A DNA stretch of 41,546 bases from NCBI RefSeq assembly GCF_003946625.1, contig NZ_RHOR01000019.1, positions 1 to 41,546 of the forward strand, read 5' to 3'. This DNA comes from Companilactobacillus kedongensis. Lineage in GTDB: Bacteria; Bacillota; Bacilli; Lactobacillales; Lactobacillaceae. The first letter of the stretch is position 1. Every line of letters starts with the position of its first letter. Below the pieces are notes generated by a model, which was not told the DNA's origin, searched no databases, and worked only from the letters and a program-made list of their open reading frames with translations. Positions 9,986 to 35,409 of this stretch are shown here, in pieces. Both the position numbers and the translations under genes were made by a program.

Positions 9986-11362
9986 CTAATTTTCAGGGAT
10001 ATTGGCTATCGATGAAAATTTATTATAAGACTTCACAAACAATAACTTGGCAGTCCCACGCGGACCGGAACGGTTTTTACTAACAATGACTTCTACTTCA
10101 CCGACGTCTTGATCCTCCTGATCCTGTGGTTCACTGTTATCATCCCCATCTTCATCACGATAGTAATCATCACGATAAAGAAAGGCAACGATATCAGCAT
10201 CCTGTTCAATTGAACCAGATTCACGAATATCTGACAACATTGGTCTCTTATCCTGGCGTTGTTCAACACCACGGGAAAGCTGTGATAACGCAATTATTGG
10301 GACATGTAATTCTTTAGCTAATTTCTTTAAGTTACGTGAAATTACTGAAACTTCTTGTTGTCTGTTCTCTTGACCTGTACCTTCGATCAACTGTAAATAA
10401 TCAATGATGACTAAATCCAACTTGCCGCTTTCTTTTAACAATCGACGACATTTTGATCTGATTTCAGCCATTTTAACACCGGGGGTATCGTCAATATAGA
10501 CATTAGTTCGAGACAAACTCCCCATGGCAACAACCAAACTGTTCCATTGATTCTCATCCAATTGACCTGTACGCAATGAATTAGCGTCGATACTACCTTC
10601 AGAACAGATCATACGGTTAACTAATTGTTCAGCACCCATTTCCAATGAGAAGATGGCAACCGTTGCTTGATCTTTAGTTGCAGCATTTTGAGCGAGATTC
10701 AACGCAAAGGCTGTTTTACCAACACCGGGACGTGCGGCTAAAATGATCAATTCATCTTTATGCAAGCCCGTCGTTAAATTATCAAGATCTTTATAACCTG
10801 TTGAAAGTCCAGTGACATCAGTATCTTCACCATATAATTTATCAATTTCATTGAAAGACGACTTTACAACATCGGAAATTCTTCTGAATCCTTGATGGTT
10901 GCGATTCTCAGAAACTTCCATAATGTCTTTTTCAGATTGATCAATGATCGTATCAAGGTCATCAGACTCTTCAAAACTACGAGAGACAATAGTTGTACCA
11001 GCATTGATCAAACGTCTTAAGACGGCTTTATTTTTGACGATACGGGCATAATAGCTAGTATTAGCAGCCGTTGGTACAGCATTAGCCAGATCGGCTAGGT
11101 AACTAACCCCGCCTATATCCTCAACTTGATTTAAACGATCAAGCTCATTTTGAACAGTCACGACGTCGACTGGAGATTCCTGATCATTTAAATTAACCAT
11201 TGCCTGGAAGACTAATTGATTAGCATGTTGATAAAAATCTTCAGCTTCAACGTATTCCATCGCTTCAACTAGTGCATATTGGCTTAAAAATACCGCACCT
11301 AAAACAGCTTGTTCAGCATCTTTATCATTTGGCGGTATTCTTGTTGTCATTTCATTATTCAT
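9986..11362 (-). CDS. dnaB: Replicative DNA helicase (DnaB; called DnaC in Bacillus)
   Basis: A 458-residue hexameric helicase that unwinds the fork 5'-3' and recruits primase. The N-terminal helical domain (about 10-110: PPNDKDAEQAVLGAVFLS) is followed by a RecA-like motor with Walker A AARPGVGKTAFAL, Walker B LVIIDYLQLI, the ALSQLSRGVEQR arginine-finger region and DIRESGSIEQDADIVAFLYR. An acidic stretch (about 405-425) is typical of lactobacilli. No intein or insertion. The ATG at 11362 has only a weak Shine-Dalgarno (GAAGT) and lies 5 nt after the rplI stop, so translation is probably coupled. Confidence 0.98.
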   Translation of the reverse strand: MNNEMTTRIPPNDKDAEQAVLGAVFLSQYALVEAMEYVEAEDFYQHANQLVFQAMVNLNDQESPVDVVTVQNELDRLNQVEDIGGVSYLADLANAVPTAANTSYYARIVKNKAVLRRLINAGTTIVSRSFEESDDLDTIIDQSEKDIMEVSENRNHQGFRRISDVVKSSFNEIDKLYGEDTDVTGLSTGYKDLDNLTTGLHKDELIILAARPGVGKTAFALNLAQNAATKDQATVAIFSLEMGAEQLVNRMICSEGSIDANSLRTGQLDENQWNSLVVAMGSLSRTNVYIDDTPGVKMAEIRSKCRRLLKESGKLDLVIIDYLQLIEGTGQENRQQEVSVISRNLKKLAKELHVPIIALSQLSRGVEQRQDKRPMLSDIRESGSIEQDADIVAFLYRDDYYRDEDGDDNSEPQDQEDQDVGEVEVIVSKNRSGPRGTAKLLFVKSYNKFSSIANIPEN

Positions 11363-11367
11363 TTAAA

Positions 11368-11823
11368 TTACTTCTTTTCAGCAACGTGTACTCTAATTGT
11401 TGCCTCAACACCCTCAAAAATTTTACTTTTAACATTGATGTAGCCTAATGACTTAACACCTTCGTTTAATTCCATCTTGTGTTTATCAACTTTTAAGCCA
11501 TATTGTTTTTCTAGTTCTTCTGAAATTTTCTTACTTGTGACTGAACCGAATAGTCGACCATCAGCACCTGATTTAGCTGAGATCTCAACAATAGTTTTGT
11601 CATCTTCAATTTGCTTTTTTAGTGCTTGGGCTTGAGCTAACTCTTCTTTATAGTTCTTAGCTTCTTTATTTTGTTCAGCTTTGAGTTTAGCTACATTTTG
11701 GTTAGTAGCTTCAATAGCTTTGTTATTTTTGATCAAGAAGTTTTGGGCATAACCATCTGCAACGTTCTTTACTTCACCCTTTTTTCCTTTTCCTCTTACA
11801 TCTGCGGTAAAAATAACTTTCAC
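11368..11823 (-). CDS. rplI: 50S ribosomal protein L9
   Basis: A 151-residue protein with the two-lobed L9 architecture: an N-terminal rRNA-binding domain starting [26 protein letters not shown]-like and containing the N-F-L-I-K-N segment, a long charged connecting helix (about 42-75), and the C-terminal domain with GRLFGSVTS. It starts with GTG behind AGGAGG; that Shine-Dalgarno overlaps the gdpP stop codon (12 nt gap), so the two genes are translationally linked. Confidence 0.98.
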
Positions 11824-11835
11824 GATGGATTCCTC

Positions 11836-13842
11836 CTAGTTTTTATTTTCAGATTCAGATAAAACCTGGACCAGTTGTTCTTTAGCTTCATTGACAGTCA
11901 CATCAGAAATTTGAGTTGCGGCATCAGATAAGTGACCGCCACCGCCCAATTTCTCCATGATAACTTGGACATTAATATTACCTAAACTACGTGCAGAAAT
12001 ACCTACACGATCATCTGGACGCTTACTAATAACAAATGAGGCCTCGACATTATTTAATGATAACAATGTATCAGCTGCTTGAGCAACAATTACTGGGTCA
12101 TAAACCCGATCATTTTCACCAAAGCAAACTGCCATCTGATTTCCAATCATGGTGATCGATTCGATCAGATGATTTCTCTGAATAAATGAATCAATATTCT
12201 CTTTTAAAAGATTTTGAATCAGAGTTTCATCAGCTCCGACTGAACGTAAGTAACTAGCGGCATCAAAGGTTCTGGTACCAGTTCTAAGTGAGAAGGATTT
12301 GGTATCGACTGTGATTCCGGCCAATAAAGAAGTAGCTTCGATTTTCTCGATAGCTTTCTTATTCTTAGGTTGATATTCTAACATTTCAGTAATCAACTCA
12401 CTGGTTGATGATGCGTAAGGTTCAATATAAATCAACATTGGATTCTCAGGGAACTCTTCACCACGACGATGGTGATCGATAACGACAACCTTTTCGCTGG
12501 TCTTATTGAATAGATCTGGATTGATCGAGATACTCTGCTTAGAATGATCGACCATAACGATCAATGTGTTAGAAGTAACAGTATTCAGTGACTCTTCTGA
12601 TGAAATAATGTCATCTTTTATAGCTGGATCTTCATCGATCAAACTGATCAAACGACTAACGTCCGTATGTAGATCCTTAGTGTCGATCACGATTTTACAT
12701 GGAGTATTGTTCATCTGTGCAATTCTTCTGATACCTAAACATGAACCTAAAACATCCATATCAGGATGATTATGTCCCATAACTAACACTTGATCGCTGT
12801 CTTTTAGTAACTCTTGTAAAGCTTCACTGATCATTCTTGCTCGAACACGTGTTCGTTTTTCCATTGGATCAGTATTTCCACCATAAAAACGAGCTTTCTT
12901 ACCGATCTCTTTAACAACAACCTGATCTCCCCCTCGACCTAGTGATAGATTAAGGTTCTTTTGTGCTTCATCATTCAAAACATTCAAGTCATCAACACCA
13001 TATGAGAATCCCATACTCAAAGTTAACGGAACATTTTGTTGGGATGTATATTCTCTAATGACATCTAAGATTTTAAATCCTTTTTTCTCCATGTTAAAAA
13101 TCTTACCTGAATAGGCAACAATGAAGAAATGATCATCATCGATCCGTTTTAAAAACATTTGTTCGCTGGATGCCCAATTGGACAATTCATTGGTTATATA
13201 ATTATCCAGATTGGAAACATCACGATCACTCATTGATTGTGTGATTTCTGCGTAATTATCCAAATATACTTGACCAATAACTGAACGGTTATCTTCATAG
13301 CGTCGTTCAATCTTGGAATAACGAGTTATATCCATAAAGTACATCGTCTGTAATTCTCTTTGGATCTGAACTAAATAGTACTTATCACCGATTTTTATAG
13401 TTTGATGAGATTCATTTTCTTGATCATCACTAACCAATGAAAGTAAATCATTTGAAATATCAGATAGACTCATACTAAATGCGGATTCGATCCCGGTTTT
13501 TTCAACAAAATAAGGATTGACCCATTGAACTTGATTATCATCATCATAAAGTAAGATTCCCAAAGGATATTCGACAAAACTATTATCCGTTCCCCGATCA
13601 ATTCGATACTGCAAATTATTCGTATACTTACCCGCTTTTTCACCTAAAAGCAAGAAGAGGTATACAAAAAGTATCAACGAGATAATTACAAGCACAGCTT
13701 GAATATAGCCACTGATGGATCCATGTACCATACCAACAATTAAAATTGAAATCAGCATGACAATTAAAGATAGCGCTGTCAGTTGTGTTGAATAATCTAC
13801 TCGAGAAAGGAAAAATCGCAGGTTAGATTTTATTTTTTCCAT
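11836..13842 (-). CDS. gdpP: Cyclic-di-AMP phosphodiesterase GdpP
   Basis: A 668-residue membrane enzyme that hydrolyses c-di-AMP and so affects osmolyte transport and wall stress. Two membrane helices (about 22-40 and 46-68), a PAS-like domain (about 85-170), a degenerate GGDEF domain (about 175-305), then a DHH-DHHA1 phosphodiesterase unit. Metal-binding motifs seen are GHNHPDMDVLG, MVDHSK and VIDHHRRG; the DHHA1 part has GGGGHLSDAATQ. Length and order match Bacillus GdpP. The ATG has AGAGGGG; a second perfect AGGAGGT lies about 20 nt further up with no start behind it. It heads gdpP-rplI-dnaB. Confidence 0.98.
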   Translation of the reverse strand: MEKIKSNLRFFLSRVDYSTQLTALSLIVMLISILIVGMVHGSISGYIQAVLVIISLILFVYLFLLLGEKAGKYTNNLQYRIDRGTDNSFVEYPLGILLYDDDNQVQWVNPYFVEKTGIESAFSMSLSDISNDLLSLVSDDQENESHQTIKIGDKYYLVQIQRELQTMYFMDITRYSKIERRYEDNRSVIGQVYLDNYAEITQSMSDRDVSNLDNYITNELSNWASSEQMFLKRIDDDHFFIVAYSGKIFNMEKKGFKILDVIREYTSQQNVPLTLSMGFSYGVDDLNVLNDEAQKNLNLSLGRGGDQVVVKEIGKKARFYGGNTDPMEKRTRVRARMISEALQELLKDSDQVLVMGHNHPDMDVLGSCLGIRRIAQMNNTPCKIVIDTKDLHTDVSRLISLIDEDPAIKDDIISSEESLNTVTSNTLIVMVDHSKQSISINPDLFNKTSEKVVVIDHHRRGEEFPENPMLIYIEPYASSTSELITEMLEYQPKNKKAIEKIEATSLLAGITVDTKSFSLRTGTRTFDAASYLRSVGADETLIQNLLKENIDSFIQRNHLIESITMIGNQMAVCFGENDRVYDPVIVAQAADTLLSLNNVEASFVISKRPDDRVGISARSLGNINVQVIMEKLGGGGHLSDAATQISDVTVNEAKEQLVQVLSESENKN

Positions 13843-29830: not shown

Positions 29831-29865
29831 ATTGGAGTAAAGTAACTTTCTGAAAACATTTATAG

Positions 29866-29903
29866 AATAGGAAAATCGTACGAACGATTTTCCTATTTTT
29901 TTT
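29866..29903 (+). terminator. Terminator after the DUF1801 gene
   Basis: A perfect 14-bp stem aataggaaaatcgt (29866-29879) / acgattttcctatt (29884-29897) with loop acga and a T8 run. Confidence 0.92.
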
Positions 29904-29925: not shown

Positions 29926-29972
29926 AAAATACGAACTATATTAAAAAACAAATTTGAAATTGTTCGTACTTT
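29926..29972. promoter_or_regulatory. Paired inverted PurR-type boxes
   Basis: AAAATACGAACTAT (29926-29939) and, inverted, AAAGTACGAACAAT (complement of 29959-29972) agree at 12 of 14 positions. Both have the CGAAC core of the Gram-positive PurBox (consensus AWWWCCGAACWWT), and the two cores are 25 nt apart, comparable with known PurBox pairs. The second box lies between the -35 and -10 of the downstream promoter, so repression is expected when PRPP is low (purines plentiful). Confidence 0.75.
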
Positions 29973-29982
29973 CTGCTATATT
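29954..29982 (+). promoter_or_regulatory. Promoter of the ABC importer-adenine deaminase operon
   Basis: TTGAAA (29954-29959), 17-nt spacer, TATATT (29977-29982) with an extended -10 TG at 29974-29975. It sits 32 nt before the first gene's TTG start and is overlapped by the inverted PurR-type boxes. Confidence 0.8.
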
Positions 29983-30014
29983 ACTGGTATTGATTTCAGA
30001 AAGGTTGTCATAAT

Positions 30015-30839
30015 TTGAAAAGATCTACTGTTTTATTACTATCCCCGGGACTTTTATTGATAATTGTTCTGTTGATATTACCGATCTTACAAATGTTCTT
30101 GCCGACATTTGTGGGAGATCAGTTTTTCTTGGAAAAATATCTTAACTTTTTCCATAGTAGCGGCAATATTCAAGTAATCTTACGAACATTGATGATTGCA
30201 GTTATCACAACCTTAATAACCCTGTCGTTGGGGTTGCCAACTGCATACTGGATGTCTCGTTTGGGAGAGAGATGGAAGAAAGTCGTATCAATAATTGTTT
30301 TATTCCCGATATTGACCAATGCCGTAGTTAGAAATTTTGCATGGATCACAATTTTAGGAAAAAACGGTGTAATCAATAATCTCTTGATGCAATTACACCT
30401 TATTGAGAAACCTATGACTTTGCTATACACGAACTTTTCGATCGTTATTGGATCGGTTTATCTGTTTTTGCCGATCATGATTACTTCGTTAGTTAGTTCG
30501 TTCAGTCAGCTTAACTTTGAAGTTGAAGAAGCTGCTTCTGTTATTGGTGCTCGACCTTCAATCGTATTTTTCAAAGTCATTTTGCCACAACTTTCGGTGG
30601 GGATGCTTACAGGTTCAATCCTGGTTTTTGTTGGTTCGCTAACGGCATATACAACGCCTCAGTTGTTAGGTGGAAACAAGAATATGGTATTGGCAACGTT
30701 GCTACAACAACAATCGATCACTTTAGGCGATTGGACAAGCGCCAGTGTAGTTGCTGTTATCTTAACTGTAATTGCTGTCTTGGTTATGACAATTATGAAT
30801 TACGGTACTAAGTTAATGGATCGGAGGAATGCTAAGTGA
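30015..30839 (+). CDS. ABC transporter permease, PotB-like
   Basis: A 274-residue inner-membrane permease with about six membrane helices and the EAA loop VEEAASVIGARPSIVFFKVILP that docks to the ATPase. Family: PotB of spermidine/putrescine importers and its relatives. The start is TTG behind AGAAAGG. It is the first of five tightly linked genes (permease, permease, ATPase, binding protein, adenine deaminase), and its last 4 nt overlap the next gene. Polyamine pot operons in this group usually run A-B-C-D, so the order B-C-A-D together with a PurR-type operator argues for another substrate, probably a purine. Confidence 0.9.
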   Translation: MKRSTVLLLSPGLLLIIVLLILPILQMFLPTFVGDQFFLEKYLNFFHSSGNIQVILRTLMIAVITTLITLSLGLPTAYWMSRLGERWKKVVSIIVLFPILTNAVVRNFAWITILGKNGVINNLLMQLHLIEKPMTLLYTNFSIVIGSVYLFLPIMITSLVSSFSQLNFEVEEAASVIGARPSIVFFKVILPQLSVGMLTGSILVFVGSLTAYTTPQLLGGNKNMVLATLLQQQSITLGDWTSASVVAVILTVIAVLVMTIMNYGTKLMDRRNAK

Positions 30840-31618
30840 GAACAAAAATTAAGTTTTCTTCCATAGTAGGATTCTTGATTTTGATCATACTAGTTGTACC
30901 ACTGTTGATCGTTATTATTACTTCTTTTGGAGAAGAGTCAGCTATTTCATTTCCAATTAAAGGATTTACTTTTGACTGGTATGCCAATGTTTTTCAACAA
31001 CCGGATTTTGTAGAAGGGTTAAAAATGAGCTCAATAGTGGCTGTTTTGGCCTCCTTTCTGGCTCTACTGGTTGGAACACCGATCGTCTATGTTTTGACGA
31101 GATTTGATATTCATCATAAGGATTGGTTTCAGACGATATTCTTAAGCCCAGCTTTGATACCGGAAATAGTAATTGGATTTGCGTTATACCAGGCTTTAGT
31201 AATCAGCTTGCAATTGCCGCTCTTTATAAGTTTAATAGTTGGACATTTTCTATTGTGCCTGCCATATGTGGTGCGTCTGATCACGGCGGGGATGATGGAA
31301 TTTGACGAAAGTATAGAAGAGGCAGCTTGGATGGTAGGATACGATAAAGTTTCAACTTTCTTCAAAGTAGTTATTCCTAACATTAAGCAAAGCGTCGTCG
31401 CAGCGTTTATCCTATCTTTTATTACATCGTTCAATAATATCCCAATAAGTCTGTTCTTGAATGGACCGGATTTAAATATGTTACCAACGTCCATCTTGAA
31501 TTATCTGGAGAATAATTACGATCCGACCGTTTCAGCTGTTTCAGTTATCTTGATGATCATCACGGCTTCGATCATGATCCTCGCTGAAAAGTATTTGGGA
31601 TTAAACAAATTGACTTAG
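30836..31618 (+). CDS. ABC transporter permease, PotC-like
   Basis: A 260-residue permease with about six membrane helices and the EAA loop IEEAAWMVGYDKVSTFFKVVIP. It pairs with the PotB-like permease to form the channel. GTG start overlapping the upstream stop (GTGA), so translation is coupled. A Shine-Dalgarno GGAGG lies 6 nt upstream inside the previous gene. Confidence 0.9.
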   Translation: MRTKIKFSSIVGFLILIILVVPLLIVIITSFGEESAISFPIKGFTFDWYANVFQQPDFVEGLKMSSIVAVLASFLALLVGTPIVYVLTRFDIHHKDWFQTIFLSPALIPEIVIGFALYQALVISLQLPLFISLIVGHFLLCLPYVVRLITAGMMEFDESIEEAAWMVGYDKVSTFFKVVIPNIKQSVVAAFILSFITSFNNIPISLFLNGPDLNMLPTSILNYLENNYDPTVSAVSVILMIITASIMILAEKYLGLNKLT

Positions 31619-31628
31619 GAGACTTAAC

Positions 31629-32630
31629 TTGGCAAATATCGAAATATCAGATCTATCTATGTCTTATCAAAAAGGTAAACAAATTCTTGATCAATTATCA
31701 TTGAGTATCAAAGATGGGGAACTGTTATCAATTTTAGGACCCAGTGGTTGCGGTAAAACAACCATGTTACGTTTGATTTCCGGTCTTATTCCGATTCAAA
31801 AAGGAACCATCAAAGTATCAGGAAAAGACATCAGCAAGGTGCCAGTCTATAAAAGAAATTTTGGGATGGTTTTCCAAAGTTATGCGCTTTTCCCACATAT
31901 GACAATTTTTCAAAATATTACGTTTGGCTTAAAGAGACGTAAGTTAGACAAAAAAACAATCGAACAAAAAGCACTCAACATTTTAGATATAACAGGTCTA
32001 TCAAATTTAAAAGACCGTATGCCGCATGAACTATCCGGTGGTCAGCAACAACGTGTTTCATTAGCTCGTGCTTTAGCGATAAATCCTAATGTTTTACTTT
32101 TGGATGAACCACTAAGCAATTTGGACGCTAAATTAAGAATTGAAATGCGAGAAGAAATTCATCGCTTGCAACAGAAGCTCAATATGACAACTATCTTTGT
32201 TACCCACGATCAGGAAGAGTGTTTTGCAATTTCTGATCGAGTAGCTCTGATGAATCAAGGTCAAATCGAACAACTAGATACACCGCAAAATATTTACAAG
32301 AATCCACGAACTGAATTTGTAGCTCGCTTTATCGGCTATGAGAATTTCATTCCTAAAACTTGGGCTGAAGATCAACAATGGCAATTTCATAAAGAAATTA
32401 TGGGGAATTTGTTGACTATTCGTCCAGAAAATATTGGGATCGGCGCAGGAGAGAATACTCTTTTGGGGAAAGTCGTTTCTAAAAACTTTTTAGGAAATTA
32501 CTATCAATATATCGTTGATACAGAACTGGGTATTTTAAAGGTAAATACGACTAAAGATCAGTCAGAAACAAATGCTGAAATTACATTGAATTTTCCAGAA
32601 TCATCATTAATTGAATTAGAGGATAAATAG
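31629..32630 (+). CDS. ABC transporter ATPase, PotA-like
   Basis: A 333-residue ATPase: Walker A GPSGCGKTT (about 38-46), Q-loop FQSYALFPHM, signature LSGGQQQR, Walker B VLLLDEPLSNLD and H-loop VTHDQEE, followed by a C-terminal TOBE regulatory domain (about 245-330). It powers the importer formed with the two upstream permeases. TTG start behind TTAGGAG, 10 nt after the previous gene. Confidence 0.93.
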   Translation: MANIEISDLSMSYQKGKQILDQLSLSIKDGELLSILGPSGCGKTTMLRLISGLIPIQKGTIKVSGKDISKVPVYKRNFGMVFQSYALFPHMTIFQNITFGLKRRKLDKKTIEQKALNILDITGLSNLKDRMPHELSGGQQQRVSLARALAINPNVLLLDEPLSNLDAKLRIEMREEIHRLQQKLNMTTIFVTHDQEECFAISDRVALMNQGQIEQLDTPQNIYKNPRTEFVARFIGYENFIPKTWAEDQQWQFHKEIMGNLLTIRPENIGIGAGENTLLGKVVSKNFLGNYYQYIVDTELGILKVNTTKDQSETNAEITLNFPESSLIELEDK

Positions 32631-32639
32631 GAGATTAAC

Positions 32640-33689
32640 ATGAAAAAAAATACTAAATTCTTTGCGATCATCACAACTTTACTAGTTACATTACTTGTAG
32701 CAGGATGTAGTAACAATAGCAGTAAAGAAAGTAAGCAATTGACGGTTTCTACTTTTGGATTAGCAACTAAGCAGATGACGAATGATGTTTTCAAACCATT
32801 CCAAAAAGATAATAAGCTAAAAGTTAAGAGCCAATTTGGAGATAGTTCATCTAGATTTACTCAAATTGAACATAATCCTAACTCAAGTGTTGATGTGATC
32901 GAGTTAGCTCAAAATAATGCCGTAGCCGGACAAAAAAAGGGTCTCTTTAAAAAATTAGACTTCAGCAAGCTTAAGAATTTCAAGTATTTAAGTAAGGAAC
33001 AACAAAAATTAGCTAAGGATACTAACAGTGTTCCTTATACTGTTAACAGCATTGGTATTATCTATAATCCTAAGACAGTTGGTAAAATTACTTCTTGGGA
33101 TCAATTATGGGATAAGAAATTAGAAAACAGAATTGCCATTCCAGATATTTCAACTACTTTTGGACCAGCTATGGTTTATATGGCTAGTGAACATGCTAAA
33201 ACTGATGTAACAAAAGATGACGGTAAGGCAGCCTTTGGTGCTTTGAAAGAACTAAAGCCAAACGTTGTTAAGACTTATGCAAAATCTTCTGATCTTGCTA
33301 ATATGTTCAAATCTGGTGAGATCGACGTCGCCGTTGTTGGTGACTTTGCTGTTGATATGATTCAAGGGGCAGCACCAGATGTTGATTATGTAGTTCCAGA
33401 ATCAGGTACATACGCTAACTATGATACAGTTTCAATTTTGAAGAATAGCAAGAATACAGAAGCAGCTTATAAGTACATCGACTACCGTATCAGCAAAGAT
33501 TCTCAAACAACAGTTGCCGGTTCAGACTCATTAAATAATGCTCCAGTAAATGATCAAGTTAACTTAACTCGCGATGTTAAACATATGACATATGGCGATG
33601 TTGCCAAACGTGCTAAATTAATTGACTTTAACTATGTAAATAAACAATTACCAACATGGATCAAAACTTGGAATCAAACAATGAACTAA
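32640..33689 (+). CDS. ABC transporter substrate-binding lipoprotein, PotD-like fold
   Basis: A 349-residue lipoprotein with lipobox LVAGC (Cys23) and the two-lobed class of PotD/AfuA binding proteins (INSIGIIYNPKTVGKITSWDQLWDKKL-type hinge region, DISTTFGPAMVYM, EAAYKYIDYRIS near the end). By eye alignment, the acidic residues matching PotD Asp168 and Asp257 are kept (PDISTTFG, ANYDTVSI) but the aromatic residues that sandwich polyamines in E. coli PotD (Trp34, Trp229, Trp255) are replaced by small residues. A non-polyamine ligand is therefore likely. Fourth gene of the PurR-box operon, 9 nt after the ATPase. Confidence 0.88.
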   Translation: MKKNTKFFAIITTLLVTLLVAGCSNNSSKESKQLTVSTFGLATKQMTNDVFKPFQKDNKLKVKSQFGDSSSRFTQIEHNPNSSVDVIELAQNNAVAGQKKGLFKKLDFSKLKNFKYLSKEQQKLAKDTNSVPYTVNSIGIIYNPKTVGKITSWDQLWDKKLENRIAIPDISTTFGPAMVYMASEHAKTDVTKDDGKAAFGALKELKPNVVKTYAKSSDLANMFKSGEIDVAVVGDFAVDMIQGAAPDVDYVVPESGTYANYDTVSILKNSKNTEAAYKYIDYRISKDSQTTVAGSDSLNNAPVNDQVNLTRDVKHMTYGDVAKRAKLIDFNYVNKQLPTWIKTWNQTMN

Positions 33690-33699
33690 TGAGGCGCAT

Positions 33700-35373
33700 A
33701 TGAAAATAGATACTTTAATCATCAATGGAAAAGTTTTTAACAGTTTTAATCAAACTTTTGAATCAAAAGATATAGCGATTGCCGATGGAAAGTTTGTCAG
33801 AGTTGATACTAATTTGAAGTATGAGGCCAAAAAAACGGTTGATGCTAAAGGTCAATATCTTATTCCCGGTTTGATAGATTCTCATATGCATATCGAGAGT
33901 TCGATGACTGGTCCTGCTAACTTTGGAGCAGTAGCAGTCAAGTTTGGAACAACGACTGTAGTTGCCGATGCTCATGAAATTTCAAATGTGGCTGGATTAC
34001 AGGGATTAAAAGACTTTATGAACCAGAGCAGTGTGGTTGATACGTTCTATGCAATCCCTTCGTCAGTTCCATCAACTAGACCAGATATGGAAACAACTGG
34101 TGGCATCATTGGATTATCTGAAGTAAATGAACTATTAAAGGATAAACGGATCATATGTTTGGGCGAGGCTATGAATTTTAAAGGTATCGTTGATGAACCA
34201 GATTCACTGATCAGGCAGATCATCCGTTTATGCCAAAACAAGCGTCCAACGATGCCGCTTGAAGGGCATTGTCCAAAGTATACAGGCGAAGATCTAGCAA
34301 AATTTGTCGCTAGTGGTATTACTTCTGATCACACTTTCCAAGCTCCAGAAACTATGCTAGAACGAATCAGTAACGGGATGTATATTCAGATTCAAAAGAA
34401 GTCACTTTCAAAAGAAAATATGCAGACGATTATTGATCATAACTTGTATGAATATATTGGTTTTGTAACTGATGACGTGATGGCTGACGATTTGATCCAT
34501 GGGCATTTGAATATGATCGTTAAAGAAGCAATCAGTCTAGGTTTACCAGCTGAAAAAGCCGTTTATATGGCTACATTTACACCGGCTAGAAGAATGTCTC
34601 TCAACGATCGAGGAGCAATCGCTCCGGGCAGAGTAGCTGATTTGATCATGTTATCCGATCTTAATGAATTTACTATCTCACAAGTCTTCAAATCTGGGAT
34701 TTCTGTCGCAGATTTACCATCTCAAAGGGCTGATTTTCCTAAGTATTTACGGACAACTGTTCACGCCAAAAAATTTACTAAAGATGATCTTATTCTTGAA
34801 AGTTCTCAAAATTCAGTTATTGCTAATATAATGGCAGTCAATGAGCATGGTACTTTCACTAAGCATGAAAAAATGGAACTGAATGTAGTAAATGGTGTGG
34901 TTGATTGGCAAAGTGCAGGGTTATCGTTGTTGGTTGTGCAAGAACGCTATGGTAAAAACGGTAATATCAGTTTTGGACTAGTCAAAAATACTTTGAATAA
35001 ATCCGGTGCAGTGGGAACTACCTGGGCGCATGATCATCACAATTTGATGGTTATGGGAACGGATCTTGATTCCATGTTACAAGTTCAACACCAAATCATC
35101 GATCAACAAGGTGGTTATGTGGTCGCTGAAGGCAATAAAATAACAGCCAATGCACCACTAAAAATTGGTGGTATTATCAGTGATGAGCCGGTAGAAATTC
35201 TAGCTATGAAGCTCAAACAAGTTAGAGAAGCTATGAATCGTTTAGGATACGTAAATTTCAACGAGATCATGTCTTTTTCAACTTTGTCATTATTAGTATC
35301 TCAAGAATTGAAGATCTCTGATGTAGGGATGTTTGATGTTAAAACACAGCAAAAAGTTCCACTATTTGATTAA
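33700..35373 (+). CDS. ade: Adenine deaminase
   Basis: A 557-residue amidohydrolase converting adenine to hypoxanthine and ammonia in purine salvage. Metal-binding DSHMHIESSM (His62, His64), the EGHCPKYTGEDLAKF and GITSDHTF motifs, the FVTDDVMADDL segment with a catalytic Asp, and the C-terminal TTWAHDHHNLMVMG signature typical of AdeC-type adenine deaminase. Start ATG with GAGGCGC, 10 nt after the binding-protein gene, ending at a terminator. Co-transcription with an importer suggests that the imported compound or its metabolite is adenine-related. Confidence 0.95.
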   Translation: MKIDTLIINGKVFNSFNQTFESKDIAIADGKFVRVDTNLKYEAKKTVDAKGQYLIPGLIDSHMHIESSMTGPANFGAVAVKFGTTTVVADAHEISNVAGLQGLKDFMNQSSVVDTFYAIPSSVPSTRPDMETTGGIIGLSEVNELLKDKRIICLGEAMNFKGIVDEPDSLIRQIIRLCQNKRPTMPLEGHCPKYTGEDLAKFVASGITSDHTFQAPETMLERISNGMYIQIQKKSLSKENMQTIIDHNLYEYIGFVTDDVMADDLIHGHLNMIVKEAISLGLPAEKAVYMATFTPARRMSLNDRGAIAPGRVADLIMLSDLNEFTISQVFKSGISVADLPSQRADFPKYLRTTVHAKKFTKDDLILESSQNSVIANIMAVNEHGTFTKHEKMELNVVNGVVDWQSAGLSLLVVQERYGKNGNISFGLVKNTLNKSGAVGTTWAHDHHNLMVMGTDLDSMLQVQHQIIDQQGGYVVAEGNKITANAPLKIGGIISDEPVEILAMKLKQVREAMNRLGYVNFNEIMSFSTLSLLVSQELKISDVGMFDVKTQQKVPLFD

Positions 35374-35379
35374 AGTAAG

Positions 35380-35409
35380 AGCGTTTGGAGTAATCCGAGC
35401 GCTTTTTTT
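35380..35409 (+). terminator. Terminator after ade
   Basis: Stem agcgtttgg (35380-35388) / ccgagcgct (35395-35403), nine pairs including two G-U, loop agtaat, then T6. It closes the five-gene operon. Confidence 0.88.

Follow-up and report, generated by a model that had tools for sequence, protein, structure and literature searches.

A candidate PurR-controlled ABC importer for purine nucleosides or bases, linked to a divergent Ade-family deaminase, in Companilactobacillus kedongensis

Described relatives and the proposed system

The spermidine/putrescine importer PotABCD of Escherichia coli (8y5f-8y5i, 1pot) is an ATP-binding cassette (ABC) system made up of two BPD_transp_1 permeases, a TOBE_2 ATPase and an SBP_bac_8-type binding protein. 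The same set of parts is encoded by an operon in a stretch of 41,546 nucleotides from the food bacterium Companilactobacillus kedongensis (contig NZ_RHOR01000019.1; the whole stretch is hereafter called the window), in which a fifth gene encodes a deaminase of the Ade family. PotABCD structures are the best PDB sequence matches of both operon permeases. The operon is unlike PotABCD in its gene order (B-C-A-D), in having lost most of the spermidine-contacting residues, and in its predicted purine regulation and its neighbours.

In Bacillus subtilis, PurR binds pairs of CGAA-core boxes, senses phosphoribosyl pyrophosphate (PRPP) and controls guaC. The defining trait of its regulon is the presence of paired inverted PurBoxes with a CGAA core, at a fixed spacing near the promoter. 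The operon resembles this regulon, and that of Lactobacillaceae (PMC3616900), in its inverted CGAA-core boxes, in the presence of PurR and in the sharing of boxes with guaC and purEK. It is not among the lactobacillar additions to the regulon named in passages of PMC3616900, which are purB, guaB and prsA. BmpA-NupABC of lactic acid bacteria (PMC7520893) would do the same job as the proposed importer, that is, ABC uptake of nucleosides, but the operon binding protein, unlike BmpA-NupABC, matches only SBP_bac_8, 6, 11 and 1 in Pfam and no Bmp family. Purine ABC transporters of ocean bacteria are listed in PMC11698098, in the main text of which the term adenine deaminase does not occur. No description of the operon or of a PotD-like purine importer was found in the open-licence literature, passages of PMC3146418 included.

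We consider that the operon probably (at roughly 70%) encodes an ABC importer that is repressed by PurR, takes up purine nucleosides or bases and is coupled to a divergent deaminase. Independent lines of evidence argue for PurR control and for a purine-type substrate, and a polyamine substrate appears unlikely. It is quite likely that the importer carries some purine and, if it does, a nucleoside is slightly favored over free bases only. From the sequence comparisons described below, we infer PurR repression, the direction of transport and the substrate. In short, PurR would hold the two boxes and block the promoter when purines are plentiful, and would release the operon when purine nucleotides are short. 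The binding lipoprotein would capture an extracellular purine nucleoside or base, the two permeases and the ATPase would carry it in, and the base would be freed by a nucleoside hydrolase, whose gene lies outside the operon in the C. kedongensis genome and within it in some relatives. The operon deaminase would then remove the exocyclic amino group of the base to give a salvageable one.

What is new here is the predicted specificity of a PotABCD-type branch, together with the deaminase clade that travels with it. If the reading is true, the label spermidine/putrescine is wrong for this group, the polyamine-like importers of Lactobacillaceae and of other Bacillota have purine nucleosides or bases as their substrates, and purine salvage gains an ABC family in addition to BmpA-NupABC and the PF00860-type permeases. 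It would also expose a deaminase clade whose substrate may be mis-assigned, and would give grounds, open to test, for telling which lactobacilli clear nucleosides from food. Tentatively, and with less than even confidence, we extend the proposal to the whole Bacillota branch of "spermidine/putrescine" importers, which might be a nucleoside/nucleobase family that is PurR-controlled in lactobacilli and co-inherited with a deaminase acting on a purine other than plain adenine and marked by a Q-x-K motif (described below).

Operon layout and predicted PurR boxes

Five plus-strand genes (permease, permease, ATPase, binding protein and ade-type deaminase) lie between two terminator-like hairpins at intergenic distances of -4, 10, 9 and 10 nucleotides. 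The open reading frames, the tight gaps and the flanking hairpins bear out the single five-gene operon proposed in the first-pass annotation of the window. Gene domains were assigned by Pfam, and the lipoprotein signal of the binding protein was read from the sequence. The features are as follows.

29864..29899, + strand: terminator-like hairpin of the upstream unit
29931..29936, + strand: PurBox 1, ACGAAC (core CGAAC), upstream of the -35 element and kept in relatives
29954..29982, + strand: sigma-70-type promoter with extended TG; TTGAAA at 29954, 17-nucleotide spacer, TATATT at 29977; 10/12 matches
29962..29967, - strand: PurBox 2, GTTCGT as read on the + strand (inverted core), inside the -35/-10 spacer
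30015..30839, + strand: permease 1, PotB-like; TTG start; BPD_transp_1; matches PotB 8y5i_B at E=2e-29
30836..31618, + strand: permease 2, PotC-like; GTG start; BPD_transp_1; matches PotC 8y5f_C at E=6e-26
31629..32630, + strand: ATPase, PotA/PhnT-like; TTG start; ABC_tran and TOBE_2
32640..33689, + strand: substrate-binding protein, lipoprotein-type, PotD-like family; SBP_bac_8; closest solved structure 4edp
33700..35373, + strand: Ade-family deaminase of the divergent linked ("QK") clade; Amidohydro_1 and Adenine_deam_C
35377..35406, + strand: terminator-like hairpin at the operon end

The CGAAC and GTTCG cores of the two boxes are separated by 25 nucleotides. They had been described as straddling the promoter, which is wrong in that only the first lies outside it, ahead of the -35 element. 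The region shows no excess of promoter-like sites (21 versus 24.0 in shuffles), and an Rfam scan of the window for riboswitches or other RNAs gave no match at gathering scores. A close relative locus (L011, C. keshanensis; L and G numbers are our handles for loci and genomes) has 94.6 to 99.7% protein identity across the five genes.

Predicted PurR control is supported by the boxes and their spacing, by a PurR gene in the genome (TIGR01743, 361.7 bits against a cut-off of 258.7), by the sharing of the arrangement with purine genes and by its conservation in relatives. Across the genome, ACGAAC-N18-30-GTTCG is found at two places, each matched on both strands; the other place is just upstream of guaC (guanosine monophosphate reductase) and has the same 25-nucleotide spacer. 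When the 37-bp arrangement is searched with up to one mismatch, four genomic places are recovered, namely the operon (0 mismatches), guaC (1), purE-purK (1; the site adjoins the gene pair directly upstream) and one coding-region site (1). The genes guaC, purE and purK were identified by reading translations. The operon thus has what marks a member of the PurR regulon: an N25 inverted pair at 29931-29967 as at guaC, a PurR gene in the genome, and sites conserved upstream of orthologous operons. Near the six PF00860-type permease genes of the same genome, no box pair was found within about 1.5 kb on each side (at most one mismatch in 10 core positions, six neighboring spacings). Near its two nucleoside hydrolase genes there are only 9-of-10 box matches, counted irrespective of their position.

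The first-pass annotation held that loss of the boxes from relatives would speak against its proposal; they are kept. We compared 22 upstream regions of Lactobacillaceae, which come from 21 genomes and one plasmid, do not count the window and include some near-copies. The best pair with an N24-25 spacer has 10/10 core positions in six regions and 9 in another six; seven regions have 8 and three have 7. Each of the twelve regions at 9 or 10 positions is equalled by at most 9 of 500 shuffles. All six Companilactobacillus relatives are among these twelve, so that, with the window, 7/7 sampled Companilactobacillus genomes that have the operon keep the boxes; in the rest of the family conservation is less even.

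Several observations weigh against this assignment. Counting shows no excess of box-like pairs in the genome, either with the exact pattern (2+2 real matches versus 3 and 6 for a reversed control pattern) or at up to three mismatches of the 37-bp pattern (141 real versus 244 control matches per strand). In 10 of the 22 Lactobacillaceae regions the boxes are weak (7-8/10), and in the 15 loci of our phylum sample outside Lactobacillaceae the best score is 6 to 8, a chance level that at least 140 of 500 shuffles reach. Within the window, CGAAC-N20-28-GTTCG occurs once against 0.13 expected and is present in 13 of 100 shuffles, so the window alone does not settle the significance of the pair. The weight of the boxes comes from their placement at purine genes, their number alone being unremarkable. 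Because they are above chance in twelve of the 22 family regions and at chance level outside the family, the predicted PurR wiring of the operon is a trait of Lactobacillaceae.

Some minor observations concern regulation. A further CGAAC core, the third, extends across the loop of the upstream-unit hairpin at 29864-29899 and may be due to chance or be a further PurR contact; similar hairpins with CGAAC are present in three relatives (L006, L007 and L011). In two loci (L085, 4130-5158; L086, 2175-3200), a LacI-family regulator gene lies directly upstream of the operon, and perhaps represents an alternative control of the same system outside Lactobacillaceae. Against E. coli-type PurR, the regulator of L086 reaches 255.5 of 501 bits, in a near tie with its score against RbsR (254.6 of 382).

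Linkage and substrate of the importer

The linkage of importer and deaminase, which the first-pass annotation had put forward as a check, held in relatives. A query with the binding protein was positive in 22 of 301 Lactobacillaceae genomes (7 of the 15 listed for Companilactobacillus), and a deaminase gene lies beside the binding-protein gene in 21 of these 22, the exception being L059 in G036. With the deaminase as query, some ade was found at E 1e-40 or better in 154 of the 301 genomes. Among the deaminase places listed, identity shows a gap, with 22 genomes at 53% or more and the next at 36% and below. The 22 genomes with the binding protein and the 22 with the close ade clade overlap in 21 (Fisher p 4e-30, relatedness ignored); the odd ones out are G036 and G009, and in the latter the deaminase match covers only residues 3-473. 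In a 398-genome sample of the phylum, the binding protein is present in 16 genomes including that of C. kedongensis, and an ade-type gene is nearby in 14 of the 15 others. Overall, an ade-type gene is near the binding-protein gene in 37 of 39 loci. This set includes one L. plantarum and two rhizobial plasmid loci, in one of which (L037) the ade-type gene is divergent and only 30% identical; it excludes a Weissella plasmid (L035), where the four transporter genes occur without a deaminase.

A rival reading of the transporter itself would be that it is a true spermidine/putrescine importer (PotABCD), cotranscribed by chance with adenine deaminase under PurR and linking polyamine and purine supply; we give this only a small chance of being right. 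In its favor, and hence against a purine importer, are the domain architecture and the closest relatives of known ligand, which are PotABCD and its polyamine-binding proteins. The binding-protein query also gave only two other weak matches in the genome (E 0.01-0.02), so that no second, better PotD candidate was seen, although two other proteins pass the general SBP_bac_8 cut-off. The nearest solved structure, 4edp (E=4e-92 by sequence, 8e-141 by profile), is clearly of the same family as the operon binding protein and comes from an organism that we take to be Clostridium perfringens. Its PDB name, ABC transporter substrate-binding protein, merely gives the type, and no paper on it was found in the open-licence literature, the one match to the string 4EDP being unrelated.

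The Pot equivalog models, by contrast, all score far under their cut-offs (PotD 70 of 582 bits, PotB 146 of 348, PotC 130 of 326, PotA 325 of 482). The spermidine-contacting residues of PotB, PotC and PotD, taken from PMC11414716, were mapped by script from printed pairwise alignments at large distance, in which single positions could be misaligned. In PotD, E36 (to K44), Y37 (to Q45), D168 (to I170), E171 (to T173), W229 (to Gly) and W255 (to N260) are lost, W34 corresponds to F39, and D257 is kept as D262. In PotB, S113 (to A103), Y223 (to T213), D226 (to Q216) and K241 (to Q231) are lost, and the remaining positions are I160 to L150, F164 to I154, L213 to L203 and F222 to Y212. In PotC, the losses are D198 (to N200), Y219 (to L221) and K223 (to E225), and the other positions read M104 to A106, S106 to I108, D108 to E110, F142 to Y144 and L191 to L193. 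Kept or similar positions are therefore PotD D257, PotC D108 and some hydrophobic or aromatic ones. In the family alignment (33 of 40 sequences), 33/33 members have Thr in the E171 column and a hydrophobic residue in the D168 column. On the polyamine side, D257 is kept as D262 in 17 of the 33, the window protein included. The overall loss of most spermidine-contacting residues in the three proteins is nevertheless clear from these alignments. The neighbors found are purine or nucleoside enzymes, no search having been aimed at polyamine enzymes. The earlier preference for a purine over a polyamine substrate is thus supported by sequence comparison, both by the ade-type gene in 37/39 loci and by these lost residues.

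Within the purine reading, the neighbors favor nucleosides. Within 3 kb of the block, a nucleoside hydrolase gene is present in 12 of the 39 loci and a nucleoside phosphorylase gene in 8 others, 20/39 in total. Lactobacillaceae contribute 6 of 21 genomes to this total and the L. plantarum plasmid one locus; the rest are 13 of the 15 phylum loci from beyond the family. In the two remaining loci of the 15 the neighbor is an ATZ/TRZ-type deaminase, which carries little weight because the same type is also found beside 8 of the 30 canonical ade loci and 2 of 20 additional ones. No nucleoside hydrolase or phosphorylase was seen at the 30 canonical ade loci, in a view of only 1.5 kb on each side. 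The linked nucleoside-cleaving enzymes speak for purine nucleosides no less than for free bases. Their names do not fix the base, because the tested hydrolases score best against RihC and the tested phosphorylases best against uridine phosphorylase, all below cut-offs. Two points weigh against a purine nucleoside: these best scores make a pyrimidine substrate conceivable outside lactobacilli, and the window and the six Companilactobacillus relatives have no nucleoside-cleaving gene within 3 kb of the operon, so that the window's own operon is silent on nucleoside versus base.

It is also possible, though doubtful, that free purine bases, chiefly adenine, are the only substrates of the importer and that the deaminase is an ordinary adenine deaminase. 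The Companilactobacillus loci, where the deaminase is the only such enzyme encoded with the importer, fit this alternative; the nucleoside-cleaving neighbors in 20/39 loci do not. The C. kedongensis genome also has six PF00860-type permeases (some of which may carry uracil or xanthine) and, elsewhere, two nucleoside hydrolases. The earlier claim of a free purine base is supported as to the purine and less so as to the base alone. The deaminase bears on the same question and is taken up in the next section.

Side observations on the transporter block were made in several loci. An ISLpl1 (IS30) transposase gene precedes it on L. plantarum pMK02 (L036) and on Weissella cibaria pMKC05 (L035), and because it follows this gene on both plasmids, the block seems mobile between genera; the pMK02 block has ade and a nucleoside hydrolase, and the 5.5-kb pMKC05 has neither. 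In L043, which covers the same region as L012 of C. futsaii, ade is followed at 10923-11891 by the gene of another binding protein of the family, 41% identical; in L042 and L044 no second one scores over 100 bits. The binding-protein gene of L049 (G148) contains one in-frame TGA, and because this falls apparently about ten codons before the usual end, the protein may be only slightly shortened. A distant form of the cluster on an Agrobacterium vitis plasmid (L038/L207) comprises the importer, an N-carbamoyl-D-amino-acid hydrolase, an XRE regulator and an ade-type gene with R-x-H at the position discussed below, with a BMP-family protein nearby.

The linked deaminase

Like AdeC/Ade (TIGR01178) and Atu4426 (3nqb), the operon deaminase is a full-length match to the family, but it scores 372 bits against a cut-off of 472.5, and 0 of 21 linked deaminases scanned reach E 1e-141, which is about the TIGR01178 cut-off. 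H62, H64, H92, E93, H190, H211 and D258 are kept in 32/32 linked sequences; we take them to be the metal ligands and the general base. The linked deaminases differ from the canonical ones in three substrate-site residues, with Gln232 for Arg, Lys234 for Gly and Thr212 for Glu in all 32 when compared with 30 canonical sequences. The 30 are the best-scoring loci, 95 of 249 genomes having a match over the cut-off, and L039, a near-copy of the window, was left out of the count of 32. The resulting Q-x-K motif is present in 35/35 linked Bacillota deaminases, the distant L093, L095 and L096 included, and in 0/30 canonical ones, which have Arg at this position in 30/30; the two rhizobial linked deaminases have R-x-H. 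In Atu4426, Arg260 is described as substrate-recognising (PMC12133300), and we equate the canonical Arg with it through an inferred offset of 3 in numbering. No canonical ade has importer permeases or a binding protein within 1.5 kb (0/30).

The label adenine deaminase accordingly holds in part. Membership in the Ade family and the kept metal-site residues stand, and an ordinary adenine deaminase is doubtful, the protein lying below the cut-off with changed substrate-site residues. For the same reasons, adenine as the substrate of the linked deaminase is only an assumption. In a 61-row tree, all Q-x-K sequences group together with 100/98 support, separate from the canonical clade. On the opposite side, Atu4426, a proven adenine deaminase with Arg, is the group nearest to the linked clade (95/89, long branches), so adenine may still be the substrate. 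This placement and the kept residues speak for the free-base alternative introduced above; the replacement of Arg by Gln and of Gly by Lys in all linked Bacillota deaminases, and the second ade genes found in several genomes, speak against it. Such a second ade, besides the linked one, scores over the TIGR01178 cut-off in G405, G480 and G490 and just under it, with Arg, in G366 and G519. In Lactobacillaceae, G028, G065, G078, G145 and G285 have a second ade with 31-33% identity to the window deaminase.

These findings raise a further explanation, in which the importer, a nucleoside hydrolase or phosphorylase and the QK deaminase together serve to salvage one particular modified or unusual purine. 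Examples would be isoguanine, an N6-substituted adenine or a cytokinin riboside from plants. The clade-wide change of substrate-site residues with an intact metal centre, the single well-supported Q-x-K group and the co-existing second ade are in keeping with it, and we regard it as a tentative possibility. The N6-methyladenine deaminase YerA is described as using Arg at such a position (PMC12133300); N6-methyl specificity is thus not what the residue change is known for.

Among 23 further ade sequences (from 20 loci without the importer; one is identical to a canonical row, L144 and L168_6992 being the same protein), two have Q-x-K, L164 and L166. The contig of L164 starts 0.9 kb before the gene, and a phosphorylase gene is there. 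In L166 (4099-7392), the Q-x-K deaminase and a phosphorylase are encoded near an Opp-type ABC permease gene (by reading) and not near a PotD-like importer, which possibly reflects a swap of transporters.

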